A DNA stretch of 64,000 nucleotides from Croceibacterium atlanticum (GTDB lineage: Bacteria > Pseudomonadota > Alphaproteobacteria > Sphingomonadales > Sphingomonadaceae): assembly GCF_001008165.2 (NCBI RefSeq), contig NZ_CP011452.2, positions 1,674,001-1,738,000 on the forward strand, in the 5' to 3' direction. A model generated the notes under the pieces. It saw nothing but the letters and a program-made list of their open reading frames with translations. It was not told the DNA's origin and searched no databases. How positions within the stretch are numbered: position 1 is the stretch's first letter; each line of letters opens with the position of its first letter. A program made the position numbers and the translations under genes. Shown in pieces: positions 50,207-64,000 of this stretch.

Positions 50207-50965
50207 GTGGTCGCACTGGTTTCTACCGTGGCCTATCTCGGGCTGGAGGCGCGGCGCGTGGAAGTTCAGTGCCAGGTGGCGCCGGGCATGCCGCGTTTCG
50301 CGATAGTGGGGCTGCCGGACAAGGCAGTGGGCGAAAGCCGCGAACGGGTGCAATCGGCGCTCGCATCCATGGGCCTTTCCCTGCCGCCCAAGCGGATCAC
50401 CATCAATCTTTCCCCGGCCGACCTGCCGAAGGAAGGTTCGCATTACGATCTGCCCATCGCGCTGGCCTTGCTGGCCGCCATGGGTGTGACCGATGCCGAA
50501 CAGCTGGCCGACTGGGTGGCAGTGGGCGAACTGGCGCTGGATGGCAGGGTCGTCGGTTCCCCCGGAGTATTGCTGGCCGCGATTCATGCCAGCGAAACAG
50601 AAAAGGGCCTGATCTGCCCGGCCGGCCAGGGGGCGGAAGCGCGCTGGGCCAGCGGCGTGCCCGTCTGCGCCGCGCCGGACCTGGTCAGCCTGCTCAACCA
50701 TCTTAAGGGCACGCAGCGCCTGCCCGATCCCGAACCGGGCGCGGTCGAACCGGCAGCCCCCGGCCCCGATCTCAAACAGGTGAAAGGGCAGGAAACCGCC
50801 AGGCGCGCGCTGGAAATCGCCGCCGCCGGAGGGCACAATCTGTTCTTGACCGCGTCGCCGTCGATTGCATTACGCGCAACGGCAGCTTCGCGCCCTCATG
50901 CCGGACATTCGACCAATCGCGACAAGATCCCGAAAGCCGCCATTCGTTCGTGGGGCCGACGATGA
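50207..50965 (+). pseudogene. comM: Truncated comM (yifB), Mg-chelatase-like ATPase, broken before Walker A
   Basis: The first 214 codons match ComM/YifB (branch-migration helicase of natural transformation): MVALVSTVAYLGLEARRVEVQ, FAIVGLPDKAVGESRERV, PKRITINLSPADLPKEGSHYDLPIALALLAA (in pieces) and KGQETARRALEIAAAGGHNLFL. Full-length ComM is about 500 residues and continues with a GPPGxGKS loop. Here the homology stops after LFL (50848), and 38 unrelated residues follow to a stop at 50965. The ATPase core and C-terminal domain are absent from the window, so the product is non-functional as a helicase. The break is the left border of the accessory region. Confidence 0.9.
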
Positions 50966-51220
50966 CAACAATGTGTCCTCGTTTTGGTCATTCTTTGCGG
51001 CTTCGGGGTGGCCATTAGCGGACGTTGACTCATCCAGTCGCCCTTCCGTCCACGTAGGGCGCCGGATCGCCACTCGCAAATTGTCGTTATCGTAATCTCG
51101 AAACCATAGCGCCCGCCCGCCGTTGGGGAGGAAAGTCCCATCATCGGCTCCCTGCGCGGCCGGCACAGCCCGCCGCCGCCCCGGTCCCATGCCGATTTGC
51201 GCGAGGAGAGGATGCCGACC
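50966..51220. other. Junction debris between truncated comM and the PQQ dehydrogenase
   Basis: With 50849-50965 this makes about 370 bases with no gene I can support. It contains short runs of the sort seen between islands in this group. No transposase or tRNA is visible. A GGAGGAAAGTCC word at 51127-51138 resembles the start of RNase P RNA, but nothing else of that RNA follows. Confidence 0.4.
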
Positions 51221-53632
51221 ATGGATGGCAATCACACAACTAGGAGCGCCCGCGATTGGACCCGTTTCTTGGCTCTGGCTCTGGGTGGGCTTCTTGGCCT
51301 CATCGGGCTGGTACTTATCGTAGGCGGCGCGTGGCTCGCACTGCTTGGCGGGTCCCTCTACTACGTCATTGCCGGTCTCGCGCTGCTTGCCAGCGGCGTG
51401 CTCATTGCACGGCGGTCCATGGCCGGAGTGCTGTTCTATGTCGCATTGTTCATCGGCACGATCGCCTGGGCATTCTGGGAAGTAGGCGGCGATGCCTGGG
51501 CGCTGCTGCCGCGTCTGTTCGGTCCGGCAGTTCTGTTCCTGCTGGTGGTGCTGATCACCCCGCTGATGCGCGAGGCGCGCTATGGATGGAAGCATGCGGG
51601 TGGGGCGGCGCTGGCTTCGTTCCTGGTTTTCGTCATCGGCGGCTACATCATTGCCCAGCAGCACGATCCGTGGGAGCGGGGCACCCTGCCGCAAACGCTG
51701 ATGGCGGATGCGGACCTATCCTTCGCGGCGCCGGACGGCGACTGGATCGCCTATGGCGGGACTTACGGCGCACAGCGCTATTCGCTCCTTCGCCAGATCA
51801 CGCCCGATAATGTGGGGCGGCTCGAGCGGGTGTGGGTCGCGCACACGCGCGACCTGCCCGAGGACAAGAGCGACAACAGTTATGGCGCCGAAACCACACC
51901 GCTCAAGGTGGGCGACCGGCTGTATCTGTGTTCGGCGATGAACATCATGATCGCGCTGGACCCGGCCTCGGGGCGCGAACTCTGGCGCTACGACCCGCAG
52001 GTGCCGGATGAATATATCCCCTATACCGCCGCCTGCCGCGGCGTTGCCTATTACGAAGTGCCCGATGCCGCGCAGGACCAGGCCTGCGCAGCGCGGGTGA
52101 TCCAGGGTACGCTCGACGGGCGCATCGTCGCCGTCGATGCGAATTCCGGCCTTCCCTGCGCCGATTTCGGCCAGAACGGCTCGGTCGACATCACCACCGG
52201 CATGGGCGAGGTGGTCCCGGGCATGGTCTCGATTACCTCGCCGCCGGTTGTCGTGCGGGGAAATGTGGTGACCGGCCACCAGGTGCTCGACGGGCAGAAG
52301 CGCGATGCGCCTTCGGGCGTGATCCAGGCTTTCGATGCCGTCACCGGCGAACTTGCCTGGGCGTGGGACCTGGCGCGGCCCGACCTCACCGGCGCCCCGG
52401 AGCCGGGCGACAGCTACACGCGCGGCACGCCCAATATGTGGACCATTGCCTCGGCCGACGAGGAACTGGGCCATGTCTACCTGCCGATGGGCAATTCGGC
52501 AGTCGACTATCTCAGCGCCAGCCGTTCCGATGCCGAGAACGAATATGCAACGGCACTTGTGGCGCTCGATGCCGAGACCGGCCGCCCGGCCTGGCATTTC
52601 CAGACCGTCCACAAGGACGTGTGGGATTATGACCTCGGTTCGCAGCCGACATTGATCAATCTTCCGGGCGGAGTGCCCGCGCTGGTCCTGGCCAGCAAGC
52701 AGGGAGACATGTACGTGCTCGACCGGCGCACCGGTCAGCCCCTCACAGGCGTGGAGGAGCGCCTCGTTCCCCAGGGCGGAGTGGAGCCGGAAGAGCGCAC
52801 CCGCACCCAGCCATTCTCCACCTGGCACACGCTCGCCAAGCGTGACCTGACGGAACGCGACATGTGGGGGATGTCGCCGATCGACCAGATGGTCTGCCGG
52901 ATCCAGTTCCGCCGGGCCGCCTATGACGGCATCTACACCCCGCCCACCGCCGACCGGCGCTGGATCCAGTATCCCGGCTACAATGGCGGGTCGGATTGGG
53001 GCGGCATCGCGATCGATCCGCTGCGCGGCCTAATTGTCGCCAATTACAATGACATGCCCAATTACAACCGTCTCGTTCCCCGCGAAGAGGCTGACCGGCT
53101 CGGGTGGGTTCCGCGCGGCGATCCGCGCGGCGGCGACCTTGGCGAGGGCGGGCCGGAAGGTGCCGGCGACCCGCAAATGGGCGCGCCCTATGCGGTCGAC
53201 GTCAACGCCGGCTGGCGGATGCCTTTCACCAACTTGTTGTGCAAACAGCCGCCTTATGGCGGCATCCGCGCAATCGATCTGCGCAGCGGCCAGACGGTGT
53301 GGGACCGGCCATTCGGGTCCGCACGCAAGAACGGCCCTTTCAACATTCCCTCTATGCTCCCTCTGCGTATCGGCACGCCCAACAATGGCGGCGCGGTCGT
53401 CACAGCGGGCGGGCTGATCTTCATCGCGGCGACAACCGATGACCGGATCCGTGCCATCGATATCGAAACCGGCGAAACGCTGTGGGACGATGTGCTGCCC
53501 GCGGGTGGGCAGTCCACCCCCATCACTTACGAAGCCAACGGGCGGCAATATGTGGTGATCATGACAGGCGGGCATCACTTCATGGAAACGCCCATCGGCG
53601 ACGAGGTGATCGCCTATGCTCTGCCGCGCTGA
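51221..53632 (+). CDS. gcd: Membrane-bound PQQ-dependent dehydrogenase, glucose/quinate/shikimate family
   Basis: 803 residues. N-terminal five-helix membrane domain (about 1-140: FLALALGGLLGLIGLVLIVGGAWLALLGG onward) that reaches the quinone pool, then an eight-bladed PQQ propeller in the periplasm. Motifs: GGTYGAQRYSLLRQITPDNV, CRGVAYYE, HKDVWDYDLGSQPTLINL, the lysine segment ASKQGDMYVLDRRTG, WGGIAIDPLRGLIVANYNDMP and NGGAVVTAGGLIF. It oxidises an aldose (or quinate/shikimate) and passes electrons to ubiquinone. The start MDGNHTTR has GGAGAGG eight bases upstream; MPT nine bases earlier is possible. Gluconate or dehydroquinate would be the product; no PQQ genes are near. Confidence 0.92.
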   Translation: MDGNHTTRSARDWTRFLALALGGLLGLIGLVLIVGGAWLALLGGSLYYVIAGLALLASGVLIARRSMAGVLFYVALFIGTIAWAFWEVGGDAWALLPRLFGPAVLFLLVVLITPLMREARYGWKHAGGAALASFLVFVIGGYIIAQQHDPWERGTLPQTLMADADLSFAAPDGDWIAYGGTYGAQRYSLLRQITPDNVGRLERVWVAHTRDLPEDKSDNSYGAETTPLKVGDRLYLCSAMNIMIALDPASGRELWRYDPQVPDEYIPYTAACRGVAYYEVPDAAQDQACAARVIQGTLDGRIVAVDANSGLPCADFGQNGSVDITTGMGEVVPGMVSITSPPVVVRGNVVTGHQVLDGQKRDAPSGVIQAFDAVTGELAWAWDLARPDLTGAPEPGDSYTRGTPNMWTIASADEELGHVYLPMGNSAVDYLSASRSDAENEYATALVALDAETGRPAWHFQTVHKDVWDYDLGSQPTLINLPGGVPALVLASKQGDMYVLDRRTGQPLTGVEERLVPQGGVEPEERTRTQPFSTWHTLAKRDLTERDMWGMSPIDQMVCRIQFRRAAYDGIYTPPTADRRWIQYPGYNGGSDWGGIAIDPLRGLIVANYNDMPNYNRLVPREEADRLGWVPRGDPRGGDLGEGGPEGAGDPQMGAPYAVDVNAGWRMPFTNLLCKQPPYGGIRAIDLRSGQTVWDRPFGSARKNGPFNIPSMLPLRIGTPNNGGAVVTAGGLIFIAATTDDRIRAIDIETGETLWDDVLPAGGQSTPITYEANGRQYVVIMTGGHHFMETPIGDEVIAYALPR

Positions 53633-53647
53633 CCTCCGGCCCGACCG

Positions 53648-53968
53648 CTAACAGGTCTGCAGCAGCGCGACCGGCATCCCGGTCCACAGCATTGCGCCCA
53701 GCGCGGCGACGGCAAGCGCCAGCCCAAGCCTGCGCAGGAACGCCGTGTCGCTCGAACCCTGCGCCGGCTTGCGGAGGAAGGCGAAGACGAGCCCGCCGCC
53801 CGCCGCCAGCAAGATCAGCCACACTCCGGTCAGCACCCAGCGCGCGCCATTGAAGCCCACGGCGCAGGAATAGCCATGCGCGGCATAGAGTACGACGAAG
53901 GCCAGCGCCCATAGCGAGAAGCCGGCAATCAGTGCCAGCGGCCCGGAGAAAGGCGTTTGCCTCCTCAT
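53648..53968 (-). CDS. Small membrane protein of the oxidase locus
   Basis: 106 residues, three hydrophobic segments (PLALIAGFSLWALAFVVLYA, VLTGVWLILLAAGGGLVF, LGLALAVAALGAMLWTGMPVALLQ). Its ATG overlaps the stop of the oxidase subunit gene (ATGA), so it is the last cistron of that operon. I do not recognise a family; comparable small hydrophobic proteins close many cytochrome oxidase operons. It converges on gcd, 16 bases apart. Confidence 0.7.
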   Translation of the reverse strand: MRRQTPFSGPLALIAGFSLWALAFVVLYAAHGYSCAVGFNGARWVLTGVWLILLAAGGGLVFAFLRKPAQGSSDTAFLRRLGLALAVAALGAMLWTGMPVALLQTC

Positions 53969-56481
53969 CCCGTTCCCAGCACCGGGCCGAGATGGATCGC
54001 GGCGACCGTCACCGCCCCGACCAGCGCGGAATAGCCCGAGAATGCCGCCAGGTTGCGCGGATCGAGGCTGCGCCGCGCGCTCACAAACCCGGCCCGGCCG
54101 CGGGCCAGCACGAATGCCGAGCCGATCGCCGCCAGGCCGTTGTGCAGGATAGCGTAGAGCGCCAGCGCCCATATGCACGCGGCATAGGCATGACTTGCGG
54201 CAGGCGGAGTCAGGAAAGCCAGCGTGGCGGCAAAGGCTATGCAGGCGAGTGCATTCGCCGAGGCCGATACAACGAGCCAGCGCGCGCTTCGCGCCGCGTC
54301 GCCGCGCAGATTGGAGCGATGTGCGGCCAGCGGGGCGAGCCCCGCCATCGCCAGCGCGGCCAGCGTCGCTATCGCAAGCCCGGGCGCAGCATCGATGAAG
54401 GCAGGCGGCGGCCAGCCGGGCGCAATGACCCACAGGAACAGGTAGCCGAACAGCAGCGAGATGAAGAGCGTCGCGTCGAACACCAGCGTGAAGACCATCC
54501 CCCACCAGCCGGGGGCCTGCGGGTGGGCGTGATGCGGCGGCAGCCGGGTGCCCTCTCTACAATCGACCGAGTCCGGATCGGCGGTGTCGCCTGATCGCCA
54601 GAGCCACCAGCACCCGCATCCAATCACCGCCAGGCCCAGCAGCCCCGCCCCCCAATAGAACCCTGCCAGGAAACAGATCGCCGCGCCGACCAGTGCAAGC
54701 GCGGTCCAGAACGGAATGAGCGTGGGTCCGGGCAGAATGATCACATGCTCCGGCGCGCCCGTGACGCTGTCCACCGCCATTGTCGCTCGCCGCCCGCCCA
54801 GTGCGCCGGGCAGATAGCCCGTTCCGCCCGCAAGGCGCGCCGAGAGGTCCGGGTCGTCATGCAGCGGATGGCGACTGCCCACTTTCGGCAGGCTGGCGAA
54901 ATTGTATGTCGGCGCAGGCGTGGGCATGGCCCATTCCAGCGTATCCGCCTTCCAGGGATTGTGCGGAGTATGCGGGGCAAAGCGCCACTGCACCAGTATG
55001 TCCACCAGCGTCATGGCGAAACCAATCGCCATCACGAAGCCGCCGAAAGACGATACCAGGTTCGGCCAATCCCAGCCCAGCCCGGTCTCGTAAGTGAATA
55101 CCCGGCGCGGCATGCCCAGCAGACCGGTCCAGTGCATGACCAGGAAGGTGAGGTTGAAGCCGATGAACACCAGCCAGAAGGCAAGGCGGCCCAGCCCCTG
55201 GTCGGTCCGCCTGCCACTCAGCTGCGGCCCCCAGTAATAGATGCCCGCCATCACTGGAAACACGAACCCGCCCACCAGCACATAGTGAAGGTGCGCCACC
55301 ACGAAATGGGTGTCGTGCACCTGCCAGTCGAATGGGACCACGGCCACCATCACTCCGGTGAGGCCGCCGCTCACGAAGACGAAGAAGAAGCCATAAATCC
55401 AGAGCATCGGCAGGGTCATTTTCGGCCGGCCTTTGAGGAGCGTGGTCAGCCAGGCGAAGATCTGGATCGCCGTGGGCACCACCACCAGCAGACTGGCCGC
55501 GGAAAAGAATGCCAGGCTCAGATGCGGGATGCCTGTGGTGAACATGTGATGCACCCACAGCCCGAAGCTGAGAAACGCCTGCGCGATCAGCGCTGCCACG
55601 ATCCAGCGATATCCGACGATGGGCCGCCCTGCGAACACAGGGAGGATCGTCGAGATTACCCCCGCAGCCGGAAGGAAGATGATGTAGACCTCCGGATGCC
55701 CGAACAGCCAGAACAGGTGCTGCCAAAGCAGCGGATCGCCGCCCCGTGCCGAATCGAAGAACGGCAGGCCGAATGCGCGTTCGGCCTCAAGCAAAATCGA
55801 ACCGAGGATGAGCGGCGGGAACCCGACCAGCATCATCGCCGCCGTGATCCACAAATACCAGGCGAGGAGCGGCATCTTAGAAAGCGCCATGCCTCCTGCC
55901 CGCACTTTCAGGACAGTGGCCATGAATTCGATGGCCGCACACACGGCAGACACCTCCACCACCGTGATGCCGACCAGCCAGATGTCCGAATTGATCCCCG
56001 ACGAAAACGGCTTGGACGAGAGCGGCGTGTACATGAACCAGCCGCTGTCGGGCGCGATACCGAGCACCAGCGCTGCCAGCAGGATCAGGCCGCCGGCAAG
56101 ATAGCACCAGTATCCGAACGCGCTCAGCCGCGGGAAGGCGAGGTCGCGTGCGCCCAGCACCTTAGGCAGCATGTAGAGCGCAAAGCCTTCGATCAGCGGG
56201 ATCGCGAAGAGGAACATCATCACCGTGCCGTGCATGGTGAAGACCTGGGCGTAATTCGCCGCATCCAGGAACTGGGTATCTGGCCCGGCAAGCTGCGCCC
56301 GGATCAGCATCGCCAGCACACCGCCGATGAAAAAGAATGCGATAGCGGTCACCATGAAGCGGATGCCGATGACGGTGTGGTTGGTTGCCCCAAGGAAGCC
56401 GAACCAGGTCTTCGGCTGGCCGTAGAGCGGCTCCATCTCGTGATGCAGCGCGAGGGCGCGTTTGTGTGCCGTGTCGTTCAT
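53965..56481 (-). CDS. Cytochrome c oxidase subunit I+III fusion
   Basis: 838 residues. The first ~560 are subunit I with all haem/copper ligands: FTMHGTVMMF, GHPEVYIIFLP (CuB His-Tyr pair and channel Glu), WVHHMFTTG (CuB pair) and HDTHFVVAHLHYVLVGG (haem ligands). DLAFPRLSAFGYW keeps the D-channel aspartate. After a linker near residue 600 the C-terminal 250 residues are a subunit III-like set of helices (WWGMVFTLVFDATLFISLLFGYLFLW). This I+III fusion is known in some caa3/ba3-type oxidases. The start MNDTAHKRALALHHE overlaps the coxB stop (ATGA). A longer frame upstream is an artefact. Confidence 0.92.
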   Translation of the reverse strand: MNDTAHKRALALHHEMEPLYGQPKTWFGFLGATNHTVIGIRFMVTAIAFFFIGGVLAMLIRAQLAGPDTQFLDAANYAQVFTMHGTVMMFLFAIPLIEGFALYMLPKVLGARDLAFPRLSAFGYWCYLAGGLILLAALVLGIAPDSGWFMYTPLSSKPFSSGINSDIWLVGITVVEVSAVCAAIEFMATVLKVRAGGMALSKMPLLAWYLWITAAMMLVGFPPLILGSILLEAERAFGLPFFDSARGGDPLLWQHLFWLFGHPEVYIIFLPAAGVISTILPVFAGRPIVGYRWIVAALIAQAFLSFGLWVHHMFTTGIPHLSLAFFSAASLLVVVPTAIQIFAWLTTLLKGRPKMTLPMLWIYGFFFVFVSGGLTGVMVAVVPFDWQVHDTHFVVAHLHYVLVGGFVFPVMAGIYYWGPQLSGRRTDQGLGRLAFWLVFIGFNLTFLVMHWTGLLGMPRRVFTYETGLGWDWPNLVSSFGGFVMAIGFAMTLVDILVQWRFAPHTPHNPWKADTLEWAMPTPAPTYNFASLPKVGSRHPLHDDPDLSARLAGGTGYLPGALGGRRATMAVDSVTGAPEHVIILPGPTLIPFWTALALVGAAICFLAGFYWGAGLLGLAVIGCGCWWLWRSGDTADPDSVDCREGTRLPPHHAHPQAPGWWGMVFTLVFDATLFISLLFGYLFLWVIAPGWPPPAFIDAAPGLAIATLAALAMAGLAPLAAHRSNLRGDAARSARWLVVSASANALACIAFAATLAFLTPPAASHAYAACIWALALYAILHNGLAAIGSAFVLARGRAGFVSARRSLDPRNLAAFSGYSALVGAVTVAAIHLGPVLGTG

Positions 56482-57323
56482 TCGATTCCCGTCAAGTCGA
56501 GGAGGTAATCCCGCCATTGTTCGATGATCGTTGCGGCAGGGGCGGGCCGCGGGTTGAGCACCTGGGGCGGCGGCTCGAAGCTGCCCGCCTGCTCCGCCAA
56601 TGCCGCGGCGTAGGCTTCCGCAGGGTGCGCAATCACCACCATCTGCATCGGCGCATGACCGATGCCGCAATATTCCGCGCAGACGCCGCGATAGCGGCCC
56701 GGTTTGTCGGCGTGGAGGACCATGCGATTGGTCTTGCCCGGAACAGCATCCATCTTGCCGCCCAGGCGCGGCACCCAGAAGCTGTGGATCACGTCGCCGC
56801 TCGTCAGTTCCAGCGTGAAATCTCGACCGGCGGGCACGTGGATTGTGTTGATCGTCTGGCCGCCGCCCGGATAGATCGCGACCCAGCGCCACTGCTCTGC
56901 CCGCACGGCAATCACCGCCTCATCGCTGCTGCGGGCGAACAATTGTTCGCCTCGCAGGAATGCGAAACCCATCAGCAGGGCGAGTGTGACCAGGGGAAAC
57001 ACCAAGCCCCAGCCGACCAGCACCCGGCGTGCGGAAATATCGCGCAGGCCATGCCGCTCGCGCAGGGCATAAAGCGCGACCGCCAGCACCAAGCCCAGGA
57101 TGGCCACGGCCCCGCCCAGCATGATCCACCACAATTCCGCCACCCGGGCGGCAGCGGGCCCGGCCGGGTCGAGCGCCGAAAGTTCGCCGGAGCAACCGGC
57201 CGATGCGAGGCTGGCGAAGATGGCCGCGCAACCCTTCGCGCCGCCGCGCGTTACTCCCGCATGGCCAGACTTGACGAAGCCAAAGACCAGAGCGTCGGCT
57301 CGCGCATCGCGCTGGCCGGGCAC
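56478..57323 (-). CDS. coxB: Cytochrome c oxidase subunit II (CuA)
   Basis: 281 residues if begun at the GTG used. Mature part: lipobox-like LASAGCSGELSALDPAGPAA, two helices (ELWWIMLGGAVAILGLVLAVALY and GWGLVFPLVTLALLMGFAFL), then the cupredoxin domain with EQWRWVAIYPGG, DVIHSFWVPRLGGKMDAVPGKTN and the CuA site CAEYCGIGHAPMQM. No haem-c domain is attached. The start is a puzzle: no ATG or TTG lies between the divergent DUF2231 gene and the signal sequence, so either this overlapping GTG or a rare start nearer GVTRGGAKGC is used. The cupredoxin part itself is secure. Confidence 0.88.
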   Translation of the reverse strand: MPGQRDARADALVFGFVKSGHAGVTRGGAKGCAAIFASLASAGCSGELSALDPAGPAAARVAELWWIMLGGAVAILGLVLAVALYALRERHGLRDISARRVLVGWGLVFPLVTLALLMGFAFLRGEQLFARSSDEAVIAVRAEQWRWVAIYPGGGQTINTIHVPAGRDFTLELTSGDVIHSFWVPRLGGKMDAVPGKTNRMVLHADKPGRYRGVCAEYCGIGHAPMQMVVIAHPAEAYAAALAEQAGSFEPPPQVLNPRPAPAATIIEQWRDYLLDLTGIE

Positions 57324-57815
57324 CCGATCCACGCGATGATGGTGACTTTCCCGATTGCGCTGGTCGTGGCCACGCTGGCGGCGGACCTGTTCTGGTGGTT
57401 GACCGCCGACCCATTCTTCCCGCGGCTTGCCTTGTGGGCCAGTGGATGGGGCTTCGCCTTCGGCGTGCTCGCAGGAATCGCCGGCACCGCCGAACTTCTC
57501 GCGGGACGGGGGATTCGCCGCCGTCCCGAAAGCTGGACCCATGCCACCGCTGCGATGATGCTGCTGGCGGTGATCGGTGCCAATTGGGGCCTGCGCCTCT
57601 ACGGGCCGGCCGAGGCCGTGCTGCCCTGGGGCCTGTTCCTCTCCGTGGGAGGGCTGCTCTTCGTCGGCCTGGCGGGCTGGCAGGGGGGCAAGCTGGTGTT
57701 CGAGCATCAGATGGGCGTCATGATGAATGAGGATAGACAGGCGGAGCATGCCGAGGAGGAGGCGGAGGAGGAGCGTGCCGCTCTTCCAGGGGTTGCAGCT
57801 GACCCGGCTCGGTAA
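57261..57815 (+). CDS. DUF2231-family membrane protein
   Basis: 184 residues. Three to four hydrophobic segments and the family's GHPIHAMMVTFPIALVVATL (HPxHP-like) start, then a helix pair (LALWASGWGFAFGVLAGIAGTAELL) and ATAAMMLLAVIGANWGLRL. The C-terminus is acidic (EDRQAEHAEEEAEEERA). DUF2231 is a predicted haem- or redox-related membrane family; function unproven. It is transcribed against the oxidase operon: its 5' end overlaps the possible coxB start and its 3' end overlaps the CopD-like gene by 98 bases. Confidence 0.7.
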   Translation: MARLDEAKDQSVGSRIALAGHPIHAMMVTFPIALVVATLAADLFWWLTADPFFPRLALWASGWGFAFGVLAGIAGTAELLAGRGIRRRPESWTHATAAMMLLAVIGANWGLRLYGPAEAVLPWGLFLSVGGLLFVGLAGWQGGKLVFEHQMGVMMNEDRQAEHAEEEAEEERAALPGVAADPAR

Positions 57816-58281
57816 GCCATGTCGGCAAGCCGGGATCGATCGCAGGCTTGGCCAGCACCAGCGCCAGGATTGCTAGCGAAGACGCGCCGATGGCCAGGGC
57901 GACGAGCCGGATGCGCAAGGTTGGCCCTTCCACTTCCTCATCGGCGAGATGCGCGAGCACATGGCCGTACTGCATATGCGCAACCACCAGCACGCCGACT
58001 GCCGCGAGCTTCGCGAACATCCACGGATGGAGGGCATCGGCCAGGAACAGCAACGCTCCGCCTGCGCCGACCGCGACGAAAGCGGCCGGGGAGACCAGCC
58101 CCATATAGGCGAAGCGGCTGCCCATCCGGACTCGTGCAAAGTCCTGCCGGTCGCGCACGCGCTGGTGGTTCTGGAGCAGCGCCGCGAGATACAGCAAGCC
58201 CGCCACCCAGACGGCCACTCCGGCGATATGGAGGAACTTCAGCCACAGCATCTCAGGATACAGGCTCCGCGCGGAGTCCAT
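57718..58281 (-). CDS. CopD/HemJ-like membrane protein
   Basis: 187 residues. Four predicted helices: LWLKFLHIAGVAVWVAGLLYLAALL, FVAVGAGGALLFLADA, MFAKLAAVGVLVVAHMQYGHVL and LVALAIGASSLAILALVLA. The WLKFLHI start and GMxLLY-like pattern resemble HemJ (protoporphyrinogen oxidase) and CopD/YtfN copper-resistance helices; each histidine could bind haem or copper. In a cytochrome oxidase operon, haem or copper delivery is plausible. The Pro/His-rich tail (RHAPPPPPPRHAPP) overlaps DUF2231 on the other strand. ATG at 58251 is an alternative start. Confidence 0.6.
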   Translation of the reverse strand: MDSARSLYPEMLWLKFLHIAGVAVWVAGLLYLAALLQNHQRVRDRQDFARVRMGSRFAYMGLVSPAAFVAVGAGGALLFLADALHPWMFAKLAAVGVLVVAHMQYGHVLAHLADEEVEGPTLRIRLVALAIGASSLAILALVLAKPAIDPGLPTWLTEPGQLQPLEERHAPPPPPPRHAPPVYPHSS

Positions 58282-58972
58282 GCAGCAACCTCGAAACGGC
58301 GGAGTAACCGGCCAGGACGGTCAGCGGCAGGCTCGCGGTCCACATCAGTAGGCCGGCCAGCTGCTGGTCGGCCAGCGGCGTCAGGCCATAAAGCCCGGTG
58401 GTGAGATAATGCGGGGCATAGAGCGCGCCGGGCGCAAAAGTCAGCAGCGCGCCGAGCAGCCCCATCTGCATCGTCATGGCAATGATTGCCAGCAGCGCTG
58501 CCGGCAAGGAGGTTGCGGTATCGGCCAGCCGGTACCAGAACAACATGGCCGAACCGAGCAACGCAACCTGCCCCAGCCAGTATGCCAGGTCGCTCGACAG
58601 CGCCCAGCTATAGGCAAGCGGCACGTGCCAGGCCCACATGACCGCCACATGCAGTACGAGCGCGGCGGAGAGCGGGACCTTTGACAGGTCGGCCGGCAGG
58701 CGGACGAACTGCCCCGCCAGGAGCGGCGCGGCGGCGTAGACCACGAGCAAATGGTGCGCGGCCCGAACGGAAAACAGGCCGGAACTCAGCGCGCATATCG
58801 GGGAAACATAGGCTAGGGCCAGCAAGCCCAGGCCGGCCCAGCTGGCGCGCGGCTGATGGCTCAGCAGCCATGCGGCCAGCGCCAGTGCAGCCAGCAGAGG
58901 CGGGTCGAAATTCCATGCGCCCGCTGCTGCCCCGGGCAGGGGCGCGGGGCCACAATATGGGACAGCCGGCAT
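58253..58972 (-). CDS. ctaG: Cytochrome c oxidase assembly protein CtaG (caa3-type)
   Basis: 239 residues, seven hydrophobic segments. After MPAVPYCGPAPLPG the helices include SPICALSSGLFSVRAAHHLLVVYAAAPLLAGQFV (in pieces), LVLHVAVMWAWHVPLAYSWAL, LFWYRL and LTFAPGALYAPHYLTTG, the pattern of the caa3_CtaG family that helps place copper in the oxidase. AAGGAGG lies six bases before the ATG. It is the first gene of the ctaG-CopD-like-coxB-coxAC-small membrane protein unit. Confidence 0.85.
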   Translation of the reverse strand: MPAVPYCGPAPLPGAAAGAWNFDPPLLAALALAAWLLSHQPRASWAGLGLLALAYVSPICALSSGLFSVRAAHHLLVVYAAAPLLAGQFVRLPADLSKVPLSAALVLHVAVMWAWHVPLAYSWALSSDLAYWLGQVALLGSAMLFWYRLADTATSLPAALLAIIAMTMQMGLLGALLTFAPGALYAPHYLTTGLYGLTPLADQQLAGLLMWTASLPLTVLAGYSAVSRLLHGLRAEPVS

Positions 58973-59378
58973 GCCGCCTCCTTCATGCAGCGCCGATTCC
59001 ACGAAGTACTCGACGCGGGCCATTCCGGGATTAACGCACGCCAGCGATTTCGGTTGCGGTGGTCGGGGAATTCTACTCAGGAAAGACTTCGCCACCGGTG
59101 CCGCAACTGACCAGTGACTGTCCACGCGTCCAGGCGTGAACGATATCGAAGAGCGCGCGAATCTGCCGCTACCTGGTCAGATAAATGCGGGCTTTCGAGG
59201 GATCGTTGGGGGCGTTGAACGGCCGGTTTGTCAGCGCCTGCTGACGAAGGCATGGGCTCACCCTAACGTCAGCTTTCCCGATTTCTGTACTTGAAACCGG
59301 ACAGGCGGAACTCGGCCCCACACATGAAATCATTCCGTGCGTTCTCCGTTCGGCCAATGTTGGCCGAGGAGAAATACA
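58973..59378. other. Intergenic region between ctaG and the recombinase
   Basis: 406 bases with divergent genes on both sides and no supported gene. A reading frame on the minus strand at 59169-59357 ends in ordinary residues and looks like noise. The region should hold the ctaG operon promoter and the recombinase promoter. A weak dyad CACGCGTCCAGGCGTG (59134-59149) is the only regular element seen. Confidence 0.45.
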
Positions 59379-60011
59379 ATGGGATACTCATGCTTTGATG
59401 GAGCTATGCGGCATCGTCCTGCTTGGAATGCGGGCAAGAATGTTGGAACGAAACGTCCCCTAACGCAGAAGCAGATCTGGGCGATCCGCTTTCATCTCGA
59501 TCGCGACGGACGGTTGCGAGACAAGGCTCTCTTCGACCTTGCCATCGACAGCAAGCTGCGCGGTTGTGACCTCGTCAAGATCAAGATCGGCGACGTGGTT
59601 GCGGGTGCTGAGATACGCAATCGAGCGACCGTCATTCAGCAGAAGACCAACCGACCAGTGCAATTCGAACTTACCACCGACGTGCGGGCGACATTGCTAA
59701 CGTGGCTGGAACGCCGGGGAGGCTCTATAGGCGACTATCTGTTCCCGAGCCGAGTGGATCACACTGGCCATATGAGTACGCGACAGTATGCACGCTTGGT
59801 CGACGAGTGGGTGACGGCGATCGGGCTGCGCAAGGCCGAATATGGCACACATTCGTTGCGCCGGACGAAGGCGGCAATGATCTACCGTGCCACAGGCAAC
59901 ATTCGGGCGATCCAAATCTTGCTTGGTCATACCAAGATCGAGAACACAGTGCGCTATCTTGGCGTCGACGTCGAGGATGCTCTGCTTCTGGCGGAGAGGA
60001 CCGAAATCTGA
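59379..60011 (+). CDS. Small tyrosine recombinase/integrase
   Basis: 210 residues, only the catalytic domain plus a short N-terminal extension. The family active site is complete: Arg in SKLRGCDLVKIKIGD, the K in the beta-hairpin (QQKTNRPV), HSLRRTK (His-x-x-Arg), LGHTKIENTVRYL (His and the nucleophilic Tyr). Such compact XerC/D-like integrases are typical of mobile islands and cassettes in Sphingomonadales; this one is the only mobility gene in the island part visible. GAGGAG lies upstream of the ATG. It could serve insertion or cointegrate resolution. Confidence 0.88.
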   Translation: MGYSCFDGAMRHRPAWNAGKNVGTKRPLTQKQIWAIRFHLDRDGRLRDKALFDLAIDSKLRGCDLVKIKIGDVVAGAEIRNRATVIQQKTNRPVQFELTTDVRATLLTWLERRGGSIGDYLFPSRVDHTGHMSTRQYARLVDEWVTAIGLRKAEYGTHSLRRTKAAMIYRATGNIRAIQILLGHTKIENTVRYLGVDVEDALLLAERTEI

Positions 60012-60110
60012 TCACATCTGCGGCCGATCGGCCAAGCTGGTCGGCCGCTTTCAGGCGGGGGGTCATGTGCGATCATCGGCCAGCGAAGGGGGGAGCTGAT
60101 GCTGGAATAC

Positions 60111-60434
60111 TTAGGCCGGGCGCGGACCGAACAGGATGATAGCTGCACCGCCAAGACAAACGATTGCGCCAATCAGGTCCCATCTATCGGGCTTTGCGCC
60201 TTCGATCAGCCATAGCCACGCGATAGCCGAAACAATGTAAACGCCACCGTAGGCTGCGTATGTGCGACCGGCATGTACTGCTTCTACGAGCGTCAACAAA
60301 TAAGCAAAGAGAGCCAAAGCCATCATGCCCGGAACAAGCCACCAGACGGATTTGTCCAAGCGCAACCATGCCCAAAATGCGAAGCAACCTGCGATTTCTG
60401 CGAGCGCTGCTCCGATGTATGCGAATGCAGTCAT
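60111..60434 (-). CDS. YnfA/UPF0060-family membrane protein
   Basis: 107 residues, four helices: [55 protein letters not shown] and [17 protein letters not shown]. This matches YnfA, related to the small multidrug resistance transporters. YnfA is reported to export some drugs; here only membership is clear. The ATG MTAFAY has GAAAGGC upstream. It is on the opposite strand to the recombinase. Confidence 0.9.
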
Positions 60435-60769
60435 GCCTTTCGTTCGCATCTAACTCGAACTTCCGCAATTGGCCTCAAAACTTTGAGACCGCGGCAAGTA
60501 GGCGGCGGCCGCTGGGCTGCGCGCTCATTGGCAACCGATAGTTGGATTTCCAGAGGCGGACAGCGCGCTCCTCTGTTGGCCTCACCTCTGCAAACGCTGA
60601 TCTCGGGTTAGGAGTATCTAGCCACCGCAGCCTTCACATCAGTAACTTATGCCGAGGCCGCAGTCCGCAACCTAAGTTTGAGGGCAGAAAATTCCGCAGA
60701 GCGGGCATACTGCTATTGCGACCCAATTGCAGAAACGCTAGGCGGCGGCGAATCTTCAGGGAGTTTCGA
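60435..60769. promoter_or_regulatory. Divergent intergenic region with promoter and operator of the second TonB module
   Basis: 335 bases without a gene. It lies between the start of ynfA (minus) and that of the TonB receptor (plus). A good dyad is present at 60711-60731 (listed separately). Nothing else recognised. Confidence 0.5.
60711..60731. promoter_or_regulatory. Inverted-repeat operator upstream of the second TonB receptor
   Basis: TGCTATTG-N5-CAATTGCA: left and right arms agree at seven of eight positions. TGCAAxT-type dyads are the alphaproteobacterial iron-regulator style (Fur/Irr family), so an iron-responsive site is likely but not proven. Located 38 bases before the start. Confidence 0.5.
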
Positions 60770-62902
60770 ATGTACCGCTACCTCGTCGGCGTGCTTGCGC
60801 TGGCCCCGCTTTCGCCTGCTTTCGCGCAGGAAGTCCGGCCAACGGACAGCACAACTGTTGACGACGCAGGGGGAAGCGAGATCGTCGTAACCGCGACCCG
60901 CAGCCAGCTTCCGGCCAGCGCACTTCCTCTCACCATCGATGTCATAGACAGCGAAGCGCTGGAGCGGCAGGTACTGGTATCGGGATCGACGGTCGATGCG
61001 GTATCCGCCCTTTTGCCATCCTTCTCTCCCACAAGGGAAAAGCTTTCGGGTTCGGGCGAAAGCCTGCGCGGCCGATCGCCGCTCTATGCGATCAACGGGA
61101 TTCCCCAGTCGACCCCGGTGCGCGACGGTTCGCGCGACGGCTACACCATCGACCCGTTCTTCATCGACCGGGTCGAGGTGATTTACGGATCGAACGCGCT
61201 GCAGGGCATCGGCGCGACCGGCGGCGTGGTCAACCAAGTGCTGGTCGGCGCGCCGCGCGAGGACGGCGTATCCGTCCGCACGCTGCTACAGGCCACCTTG
61301 CCCGACGGTTTCGACGGGGAAGGCATCGGCGCGAAGTTCGGCGCACTGGTGGGTTATCGGTCCGGGAACCTCGATGCCAATTTCGGCGGCACGCTGGAAA
61401 GGCGCGGGGCATTTTCCGACGGCGCGGGCAACCGGATCGGCGTGGACGGCACGCAGGGCGAAATCCAGGACAGCGACAGCTGGTCGGTGTTCGGTCGCCT
61501 CGGTTACGAACTGGCGAGCGGCGCCCGGTTCGAAATCGTGGCCAACCGCTTCGAGCTGGAAGGCAACGCCCATTACATCGCCGTCACCGGCCACCGGGAT
61601 GCCGGTATCCCCGCGACCAGCGTGCGCGGCGATACGCCGGGCGATCCGCCGTCCAACACCGCGGAACTGATTTCTGCATCGCTCACCGACACCGACCTTG
61701 GCGGCGGAACCTTCGTGCTGCAGGGATTCTACAGCCGCACCAGCGACGTCTTCGGCGGAGGCATTTTCGGGACATTCCAGGATCCCGCAATCGACCCGAC
61801 CGGCAACATCTTCGACCAGTCGGCCAACAAATCGCGCAAGCTGGGCGGCAAGGTCAGTTACGAGCGGGCCTTGCCCGGTTTCGAGGACCTGGTCCTGACC
61901 GCCGGGTTTGATGCGTTGTTCGATCGTACCGAACAGTCACTGGTTCAGACTGATCGCATCTGGGTTCCACGCAGCGACTTCCGCAGCCTTGCCCCGTTCC
62001 TGCAGGGCAATCTGGCCCTTGCCGACGGACTGGTGCGGCTGGCGGGTGGCCTGCGGTACGAGAACATCCAGCTCGACGTCGGCGATTTCACCACGCTGGC
62101 AAGCTACGGATCGGTGGACGTCGCTGGCGGCTCCCCTTCGTTTCAGGATGTGCTGTGGAATGGCGGCATCATCGTGGAGCCCATCGACGGGCTGCGCGCC
62201 TACGGCAGTTACGCAGAAGGCTTTACCATCGCCGATGTGGGCCGCATCCTGCGCGGCATCACCCAGGAAGGAGTCGATGTGGACGAGTTCCTCTCGCTCG
62301 AACCGGTGGTGTCGAACAACCGCGAACTGGGCCTGGAATGGGATCGCGGCAATCTGACCGCGTCGGCCGGATATTTCTGGTCGTCCAGCGATTTGGGATC
62401 GCTGCTGGTCCTGCGCAACGACGTCTACGAGGTCCTGCGCCAGCCGATCCAGATCGAGGGCTTCGAAGCCAGCCTGGCGTGGAAGACACCCGTTCCCGGC
62501 CTTTCGCTGAGCGGCGGCTATGCGACCATCGAAGGCCGCACAGATGGCGACGAGGACGGCGAGGTCGACGAGGATCTGGACGGGGCCAACATCTCGCCCG
62601 ATCGCGTCAACCTTGCGGCGGATTACAAATCAGGGCGCTTCAGCGCCCGCGCCCAGGCCCGCTTCTACCTCGCGCGCGAGTTCAACGATCCGGCGGTGGA
62701 TACTGATTTCGAGGGCTATGCCCTGCTCGACGCCTTTATCGCCTATCGCACCGATTTCGGAGAATTTGCGTTTGCGGCGCAGAACCTGACCGACGAATTC
62801 TACATCACCTACGACAGCGACACGGTGCGGGTGACCGACAGCAGCCGGTTCTATTCGGGCCGCGGACGCACATTCACGCTGAGCTGGCGCGGCGAATTCT
62901 GA
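60770..62902 (+). CDS. TonB-dependent receptor
   Basis: 710 residues from MYRYLVGVLALAPLSPAFAQ (Sec signal), with GGGAG upstream. Plug: SEIVVTATRSQLPASALPLTIDV, SGSTVDAVSALLPSFSP, GRSPLYAINGIP and DRVEVIYGSNALQGIGATGGVVNQ; the barrel ends SRFYSGRGRTFTLSWRGEF. It is a separate branch from the receptor at 42 kb. Its substrate is unknown; the adjoining PepSY gene and iron-style operator suggest a ferric siderophore or haem-like compound. Confidence 0.92.
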   Translation: MYRYLVGVLALAPLSPAFAQEVRPTDSTTVDDAGGSEIVVTATRSQLPASALPLTIDVIDSEALERQVLVSGSTVDAVSALLPSFSPTREKLSGSGESLRGRSPLYAINGIPQSTPVRDGSRDGYTIDPFFIDRVEVIYGSNALQGIGATGGVVNQVLVGAPREDGVSVRTLLQATLPDGFDGEGIGAKFGALVGYRSGNLDANFGGTLERRGAFSDGAGNRIGVDGTQGEIQDSDSWSVFGRLGYELASGARFEIVANRFELEGNAHYIAVTGHRDAGIPATSVRGDTPGDPPSNTAELISASLTDTDLGGGTFVLQGFYSRTSDVFGGGIFGTFQDPAIDPTGNIFDQSANKSRKLGGKVSYERALPGFEDLVLTAGFDALFDRTEQSLVQTDRIWVPRSDFRSLAPFLQGNLALADGLVRLAGGLRYENIQLDVGDFTTLASYGSVDVAGGSPSFQDVLWNGGIIVEPIDGLRAYGSYAEGFTIADVGRILRGITQEGVDVDEFLSLEPVVSNNRELGLEWDRGNLTASAGYFWSSSDLGSLLVLRNDVYEVLRQPIQIEGFEASLAWKTPVPGLSLSGGYATIEGRTDGDEDGEVDEDLDGANISPDRVNLAADYKSGRFSARAQARFYLAREFNDPAVDTDFEGYALLDAFIAYRTDFGEFAFAAQNLTDEFYITYDSDTVRVTDSSRFYSGRGRTFTLSWRGEF

Positions 62903-63984
62903 TGAAGCTCCTGTCGCTCCTGCATCGTTGGGCGGGCGGCATTGTCGGCCTCCTGCTGGCCGTTATCGGCTTGTCCGGCACGGTTCTGTTGTGGGAGGAT
63001 AGCTGGATCATGCTGGCAGGGGCGGACGAGCCGGTTGTCAGTGATCCGCAGGCTATGGGTCAGGCGGTCGCGGTCGCGCTGCAGACAGGCCCAGACCTAT
63101 CACGGATAACCTTTGCAGGTGAAGAAATCGGGCTTCATCAGGCGATCTATCGCGATGGAAGCGGCGCTTATATCACGCAGGATGGCAATGTGGTGGATCG
63201 CTGGTCAAGCATGTGGGAGAGGCCTGAACTCTGGCTGTTCGATCTCCATCATTACCTGCTCATCGGCGAAAGTGGAAAAACGCTTACCGGGGTGCTTGGT
63301 GTCCTGCTGCTGGCCTTTACAGTTACCGGGGTCATCCTGTGGTGGCGAACCCGTAAGACGTTCAAGTTCCGCCTCTGGCCGCCACGATACACCGCCAGCG
63401 CCATAGTACGACACCATCGCGATCTGGGAGTAGTTGCCTCTCCTCTGCTTATCCTTGTCGCTGCTACGGGAACGCTGATGGTGTTCCCCGCTGCGTCGGA
63501 TGTCATCCTGTCGCCTTTCGCTTCAGTGGACGATGAGCCGGATCTTCCCGGAGACCTGCTGCAGGTCGACGAAACGACAGATTGGCAAGCATTGATGGTG
63601 GCTGCCCAATCCGCCTTTCCCCAATCAGAGCCGAGGCGTCTGATGATGCCGGATGAACCCGGCAAGCCGGTAGCGATACGCTTTCGTCAGCAATTCGAAT
63701 GGACGCCGAACGGACGCAGCTATGTTTGGCTCGCTCCGGCTGGAGCAATCGCCGTCGGAACAAAGGATCCCGCCCAATCCGATGCGCGTTCCGCGATTGT
63801 CGAGAAATTCTATCCGATTCATGCCGCCAAGGTTGGAGGGCTAGTCTGGCGCCTGATCATGACTTTTGCTGGAGTGGCGTTGGTCCTCCTCGGCTCGTTT
63901 GCAAGCTGGAGTTTCTGGAGGGCCAAAGTAAGTAAGCTCAGGCCCACTGCTTCCATTTCGAATACACCAAGGACTACGGGATAA
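62902..63984 (+). CDS. PepSY-associated TM helix protein (probable siderophore/iron reductase)
   Basis: 360 residues. Four helices as in the PepSY_TM family: LLSLLHRWAGGIVGLLLAVIGLSGTVLLW, LTGVLGVLLLAFTVTGVILWW, VVASPLLILVAATGTLMVF and LVWRLIMTFAGVALVLLGSFASWSFW, with LFDLHHYLLIGESG and HHRDLGVVA placing histidines at the membrane edge. It is shorter than the family member at 44691 and only loosely related. The start ATG overlaps the receptor's stop (TGATG), so the two are coupled as in the first module. Confidence 0.88.
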   Translation: MKLLSLLHRWAGGIVGLLLAVIGLSGTVLLWEDSWIMLAGADEPVVSDPQAMGQAVAVALQTGPDLSRITFAGEEIGLHQAIYRDGSGAYITQDGNVVDRWSSMWERPELWLFDLHHYLLIGESGKTLTGVLGVLLLAFTVTGVILWWRTRKTFKFRLWPPRYTASAIVRHHRDLGVVASPLLILVAATGTLMVFPAASDVILSPFASVDDEPDLPGDLLQVDETTDWQALMVAAQSAFPQSEPRRLMMPDEPGKPVAIRFRQQFEWTPNGRSYVWLAPAGAIAVGTKDPAQSDARSAIVEKFYPIHAAKVGGLVWRLIMTFAGVALVLLGSFASWSFWRAKVSKLRPTASISNTPRTTG

Positions 63985-64000
63985 CTTTTCCGCGTTTGGG

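Follow-up and report, generated by a model that had tools for sequence, protein, structure and literature searches.

Interruption of comM in Croceibacterium atlanticum by a 45-kb island of two head-to-tail modules, probably formed at a serine-recombinase attachment site

The stretch of Croceibacterium atlanticum DNA considered here (the window, 64,000 nucleotides, C1:1674001-1738000 within a 3.39-Mb contig) raises the question of why its natural-transformation gene comM breaks off shortly before the codons of the Walker A loop, and which kind of DNA has taken over from there. The gene begins with a GTG at window position 50207 on the forward strand, and the comM of relatives has been matched up to CTGTT at 50840-50844, directly before the Walker A codons, as the first-pass annotation of this DNA had claimed. 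At 50845 comM ceases; the reading frame stays open for a further 40 unrelated codons, until a stop at 50963-50965. In the string GGHNLFL, given in that annotation as the end of the ComM part, the last residues are encoded by the island.

The break had also been taken for the border of a genomic island, and this has proved right. A search to the right of position 64000 for the comM 3' half (GPPGxGKS to the end), which the annotation had suggested, has located it on the same contig and strand at about C1:1770081-1770939 (MIGPPGAGKS..., an ORF of 285 aa), 32.1 kb past the right end of the window, so that the insert measures 45,236 bp from core to core. The suggested comparison with intact genes has been equally clear, since in seven comM genes of relatives GGHNLLM-x-GPPGAGKS runs unbroken across the insertion place. 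Cores of the CTG[CT]T type lie at both flanks of the insert, and outside them the sequence joins as in the intact comM of relatives. With the 3' half 45,236 bp to the right and flanks that join in this way, the break is an insertion, namely that of a 45-kb foreign block made of two islands end to end. Both halves of the host gene are present and the empty site can be restored, as is expected of a genomic island integrated by a large serine recombinase (LSR). From the interrupted frame it is fair to infer that normal ComM function has been lost in this genome. The features within the window are the following.

50207..50844, forward strand: comM 5' fragment (N-terminal domain), terminating with CTGTT just ahead of the Walker A codons
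50840..50844, forward strand: left-junction recombination core, CTG plus the dinucleotide TT (CTGCT at the right junction, C1:1770076-1770080); in the relatives' attP, this dinucleotide is the centre of the dyad
50845..50937, forward strand: left end L1 of module 1, conserved and non-coding, a profile match; it resembles the comM right half-site by half-site score, and one of the internal left ends in the Pelagerythrobacter marinus array is similar to it
50845..64000 in the window, forward strand: module 1 of the island, 13,365 bp, with its right end R1 just outside (window 64165-64204)
51197..53632, forward strand: cargo, membrane-bound PQQ-dependent dehydrogenase (NCBIfam TIGR03074, Pfam PQQ)
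53965..59125, reverse strand: cargo, cytochrome c oxidase cluster (CtaD/CoxA-like in a 975-aa frame, CoxB-like, UPF0093, Caa3_CtaG)
59337..60011, forward strand: short tyrosine recombinase of 224 aa (PF00589, phrog_216)
60111..60449, reverse strand: cargo, YnfA/UPF0060 membrane protein
60542..63984, forward strand: cargo, TonB-dependent receptor and PepSY-type membrane protein

The island is composed of two modules in head-to-tail order that have the same right end: the comM 5' half is followed by L1, module 1 of 13,365 bp, R1, L2, module 2 of 31,871 bp, R2 and the comM 3' half. The last ~85 bases of the island terminate in TCTTCCACAGC, 12 bases, GAGTGTAGGYRTATCYAAC and then CTG. This right end is repeated 31.9 kb earlier inside the island as R1 (C1:1738165-1738207, window from 64165), ~200 bases past the window, where it adjoins not comM but another left end (CTGTTCAAATTTGCGCGACCGGGTATTGC). 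The left and internal junctions have TT as their core dinucleotide, the right junction has CT. A tandem composite of modules at one gene, some of them without a recombinase, is the arrangement of an SCC-like cassette chromosome. The cargo of module 2 includes a catalase, an alcohol dehydrogenase, OsmC-like, PLD-like and patatin proteins and a mechanosensitive channel, together with an RND-type efflux system and an IS4/5-type transposase. One further ORF of this module (L009:16417-17235, forward strand), without a match in Pfam, NCBIfam or PHROGs, contains the string GSHVHVVVLP, which, judged by eye, looks like an HUH motif.

Adjoining one type of module left end is a 361-aa protein (L008:3265-4350, minus strand, C1:1738265-1739350) that has no match in Pfam, NCBIfam or PHROGs. 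It has been found in three of the 397 family genomes and always at a module left end, in two of them at a junction of a right with a left end (R/L) and in P. marinus (G006) at a junction of comM with a left end. As it occurs only there, it belongs to the modules, and the idea that the left ends are attachment sites beside a host gene has been rejected. An integron attC reading of the ends has been considered by eye and dropped. ORF comparisons of the arrays have revealed no protein common to all modules that could be a candidate mobilising enzyme; one round of them omitted four of the 17 right-end loci described below, namely one chance match and three whose genomes were already included.

The right end provides a probe for related arrays. 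Together with CTG and with three mismatches allowed, it has been found in 5 of 397 family genomes, the reversed control in none (0/397). An exact scan with one genome per species, covering 84,980 species, has returned 17 loci, of which 16 belong to 12 genomes of Erythrobacteraceae; the remaining one, from a Campylobacterales bin, has neither the conserved upstream bases nor a module left end and looks like a chance match. The comM 3' half adjoins six of the 16 Erythrobacteraceae loci and the left end of another module the remaining ten. Nine of these 12 genomes have their comM interrupted at codon ~212, and G457 and G458 have a single cut, at codon ~305. No comM has been found in the last one, G160, for which the search has given no match better than E 2.9e-4. 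The R/L junction of the latter genome (G160:C2:5442-5484, L073) lies on a contig of 11.4 kb, with no comM match at E 1e-15. Outside the 12 genomes, G309 has an R/L junction ~12 kb from a tRNA-Pro gene and an intact comM elsewhere, and the modules therefore also occur away from comM. The idea that viruses or plasmids carry these ends has been rejected, as the right end has no exact counterpart in the viral collection and a single match of 37 bases among plasmids.

The enzyme that would act on such ends is suggested by the relatives. Among ten arrays at comM codon ~212 whose left end has been examined, eight have an LSR gene after the comM 5' half, at a distance of 37-52 bases in seven (G456, G459, G460, G461, G462, G463, G464) and of 1.3 kb in G040; the two without it are G000 and G006. 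Of these genomes, G461 is that of Qipengyuania aestuarii GH1 and G462 that of Erythrobacter litoralis SNB-035. The LSRs of the seven other arrays are 61-82% identical to that of G461, and the three of the eight that have been domain-scanned all contain Resolvase, Recombinase and zinc-ribbon domains. In the genome of the window this clade has not been found, the sole PF00239 match there being a frame of 208 aa that lies far off; the LSR at the element end seen in 8/10 related arrays is thus missing here, and the enzyme has to be deduced from the relatives. At E<=1e-60, LSR matches occur in 10 of the 397 family genomes, 12 in all, and a comM fragment lies within about 1.5 kb of ten of these loci, of which two are one locus with two LSRs (G444) and one is situated at codon ~383 instead of 212 (G440, L119). 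More distant is the LSR at codon 212 of G012, which is 33% identical to the query LSR and has the same three domains. In that genome (L035/L036) it stands at the left edge of a 35-kb island at comM codon ~212 that has a 15-bp direct repeat, CACAATCTGCTGATG, on both sides.

Next to the LSR, the relatives have an arm (AGATAAGATATGCCTACACT in G462) that repeats the shared right end in inverted orientation. In six relatives' arrays the two arms, P and P', match as inverted repeats at 93 of 144 positions in the dyad register, compared with 18 to 56 at 20 other registers, and the dyad centre falls on the dinucleotide of the CTG[CT] core. These six arrays accordingly display imperfect inverted-repeat arms round a short core, as is typical of an attP, and the island of the window keeps the P arm only. 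Inverted-repeat arms centred on CTG[CT] are the anatomy of a serine-integrase attP.

The left ends of the modules are of another kind, for they resemble the right half-site of comM itself. When scored with a half-site matrix derived from 18 intact comM genes (18 of 20 intact loci fitted the pattern used), the 19 module left ends have reached a mean of -8.8 bits, compared with -25.2 bits for 921 control CTG[CT]T[CG] sites, of which 3.5% attain the left-end mean; as the 19 left ends represent a few related types and are not independent, the test is weaker than its z-score. Furthermore, one left end directly follows comM in P. marinus but a P end in Qipengyuania sp. XHP0211, with 200 of 200 bases identical to the right of the core and 14 of 40 to the left of it. 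As far as the two sequences tell, an exchange at the core would account directly for this switch. The left end of module 2 in the genome of the window is identical at 199 of 200 bases to those of two other genomes. Module ends that are identical at 199/200 and 200/200 bases across genera indicate that the modules travel.

Based on these features, we propose, at a probability of roughly 0.8, that this codon of comM serves as the attachment site for an Erythrobacteraceae clade of LSRs, that the arrays have been built by gain and loss of elements, and that the LSR element has been excised from the array described here. In such a system, a circular LSR element would carry an attP consisting of the P arm (...AGTGTAGGCATATCTAAC), the core CTG[CT] and the P' arm (AGATAAGATATGCCTACACT...), and would recombine with comM at CTG[CT]GATG, directly before the Walker A codons. 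The predicted products are an attL, in which the comM 5' half is followed by P' and then the LSR gene, and an attR, in which P joins the comM 3' half. Repeated gain and loss would build up arrays of modules, the internal ones having P at the right and, at the left, a B'-like end, i.e. one that resembles the comM right half-site. The genome of the window, with two modules, no LSR and comM joined directly to the B'-like end of the first module, would then represent the product expected if the LSR element had left by recombination of attL with an internal attR. It is probable that this LSR has carried out the exchanges, that excision has removed its element here and that ComM has ceased to function. 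The origin of B'-like left ends on LSR-less modules falls outside the proposed mechanism. Evidence that runs counter to it comes from the R/L junctions away from codon 212, in G309 with its intact comM, in G457 and G458 and in G160. The different core dinucleotides (TT at the left and internal junctions vs CT at the right) also speak against it, as do the two of 12 LSR loci that have no comM nearby and the one at codon ~383.

The alternative that fares best is that the array arrived ready-made by homologous recombination through the comM flanks, the LSR having been deleted in an ordinary way or never having been present in this genome. The travelling of modules with identical or nearly identical ends is in line with it, a flank-based transfer would give the same structure as has been seen here, and the end state of this genome could indeed have come by homologous recombination with another strain. 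However, one would not expect an ordinary deletion to end precisely at the core with a B'-like end left behind, which is the state of both LSR-less arrays (G000 and G006), and we regard this course of events as improbable, at something like one chance in eight of being correct.

Considerably less probable is an integration of the island by its own short tyrosine recombinase, the PF00589 enzyme at 59337-60011 inside module 1. It sits in the middle of this module and not at an end, the complete arrays of G461, G462 and G463 have the same right end and yet no PF00589 match inside, and no related protein has been met in the other arrays compared. As it is not common to the other complete arrays, it has not been taken as the recombinase of the array.

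Finally, the first-pass annotation had proposed kinship with the AbaR-type (Tn7-like) islands that insert into comM, one described case of which has 5'-ACCGC-3' repeats at both ends (PMC3691203), and had pointed to the same word near the left junction as a possible five-base target duplication. This ACCGC (50849-50853) begins at the fifth base of the island, inside L1, and has not been found within 60 bases of the right junction; therefore, it is not a target duplication. With no tni- or rve-type gene (the tniA/tniB/tniC-like genes that had been anticipated included) among the 33 island ORFs scanned with Pfam, which are part of the island's ORFs and whose sole transposase is of the IS4/5 type, with array ends that make LSR-type arms and with relatives that carry an LSR at this place, a transposon of this kind is the least credible of the readings and has been rejected.

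The earlier view of comM as a target of islands is well founded, as the gene is a recurrent island target within this family. Two or more comM matches have been counted by hand in 63 of 397 family genomes, a number that is an upper bound for interruption because contig breaks and extra copies are included. A second hot spot lies at codon ~305 (L105 in G457, L106 in G458, L107 in G459, L109 in G464), where all four inserts have an IS1595-type transposase, inverted repeats at both ends and a conserved protein of ~150 aa near one end. In two of the four, a cargo of 16-18 kb has matches to defence families, namely type I restriction-modification in G464 and PLD-helicase/BrxH/DrmD-like, HmaB-like and UvrD-like proteins in G459. 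In G146 (C1:590191-643721), codons 2-354 of comM are followed by three copies of codons 341-498 at 614869, 618360 and 643230, as if islands had brought their own comM 3' ends. Moreover, comM is interrupted or split at about codons 394 (G002), 240 (G077), 338 (G087), 283 (G092), 302 (G128) and 383 (G440), the pieces being 4 to 70 kb apart where they are on one contig.

Cassette elements that share one entry gene are known from staphylococci, in which SCC elements use serine recombinases and rlmH as the single chromosomal entry gene, form composite arrays and include some cassettes without a recombinase of their own. The comM arrays are alike in all four respects, but differ in host phylum, target gene and core, and we do not class them as SCC. 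A wider proposal, which we offer tentatively and at slightly less than even odds, would make comM the landing pad of a cassette-chromosome-like system in Erythrobacteraceae. One LSR clade, encoded next to comM at the left edge of the array, would serve a stock of LSR-less modules passing from genus to genus, with P at the right and a comM-mimicking half-site at the left. Loss of the LSR element would leave a hybrid attB of comM and module for new LSR elements, so that arrays would grow at the comM side and ComM-dependent uptake of foreign DNA would stay silenced.

With regard to published systems, 12.4% of predicted site-specific integrases have been reported to target the magnesium chelatase/ATP-dependent protease gene, which is hit by diverse LSR clusters (PMC10083194) and is the same kind of target gene for LSR integration as here; the passage concerned speaks neither of arrays of LSR-less modules nor of hybrid left junctions, both of which are present in our case. 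In Wolbachia, a serine recombinase of sr1WO prophages places the element inside the magnesium chelatase gene, with portions of the gene on either side (PMC9203015). According to the part of that work considered, these elements are prophages, whereas those in comM are multi-module arrays, and no phage module has been noticed in the ORFs scanned. AbaR and other islands inside comM of Acinetobacter baumannii have been linked to reduced natural transformation (PMC3691203, PMC11472951). They resemble the present island in their location inside comM, but, as described in the passages concerned, involve Tn7-like transposition with a 5-bp duplication, while a CTG[CT] core without such a duplication is found here, a comparison that does not extend to the identity of the codon. 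A literature search has brought up no account of such arrays in the comM of this family, although it was partly diluted because 'comM' also matched words such as 'common'. As far as these passages reach, LSRs that target this gene are known (PMC10083194) and arrays of LSR-less modules look new.

What had been a remark on a broken gene is thus replaced by a defined site-specific system with predicted attP, attB, attL and attR sites, of which the window itself shows an LSR-less state. That serine recombinases favour this gene has been published, and the arrays would be a further variant of this preference. The system also bears on the question of why mobile elements so often land in comM, a gene that helps cells to recombine incoming foreign DNA.
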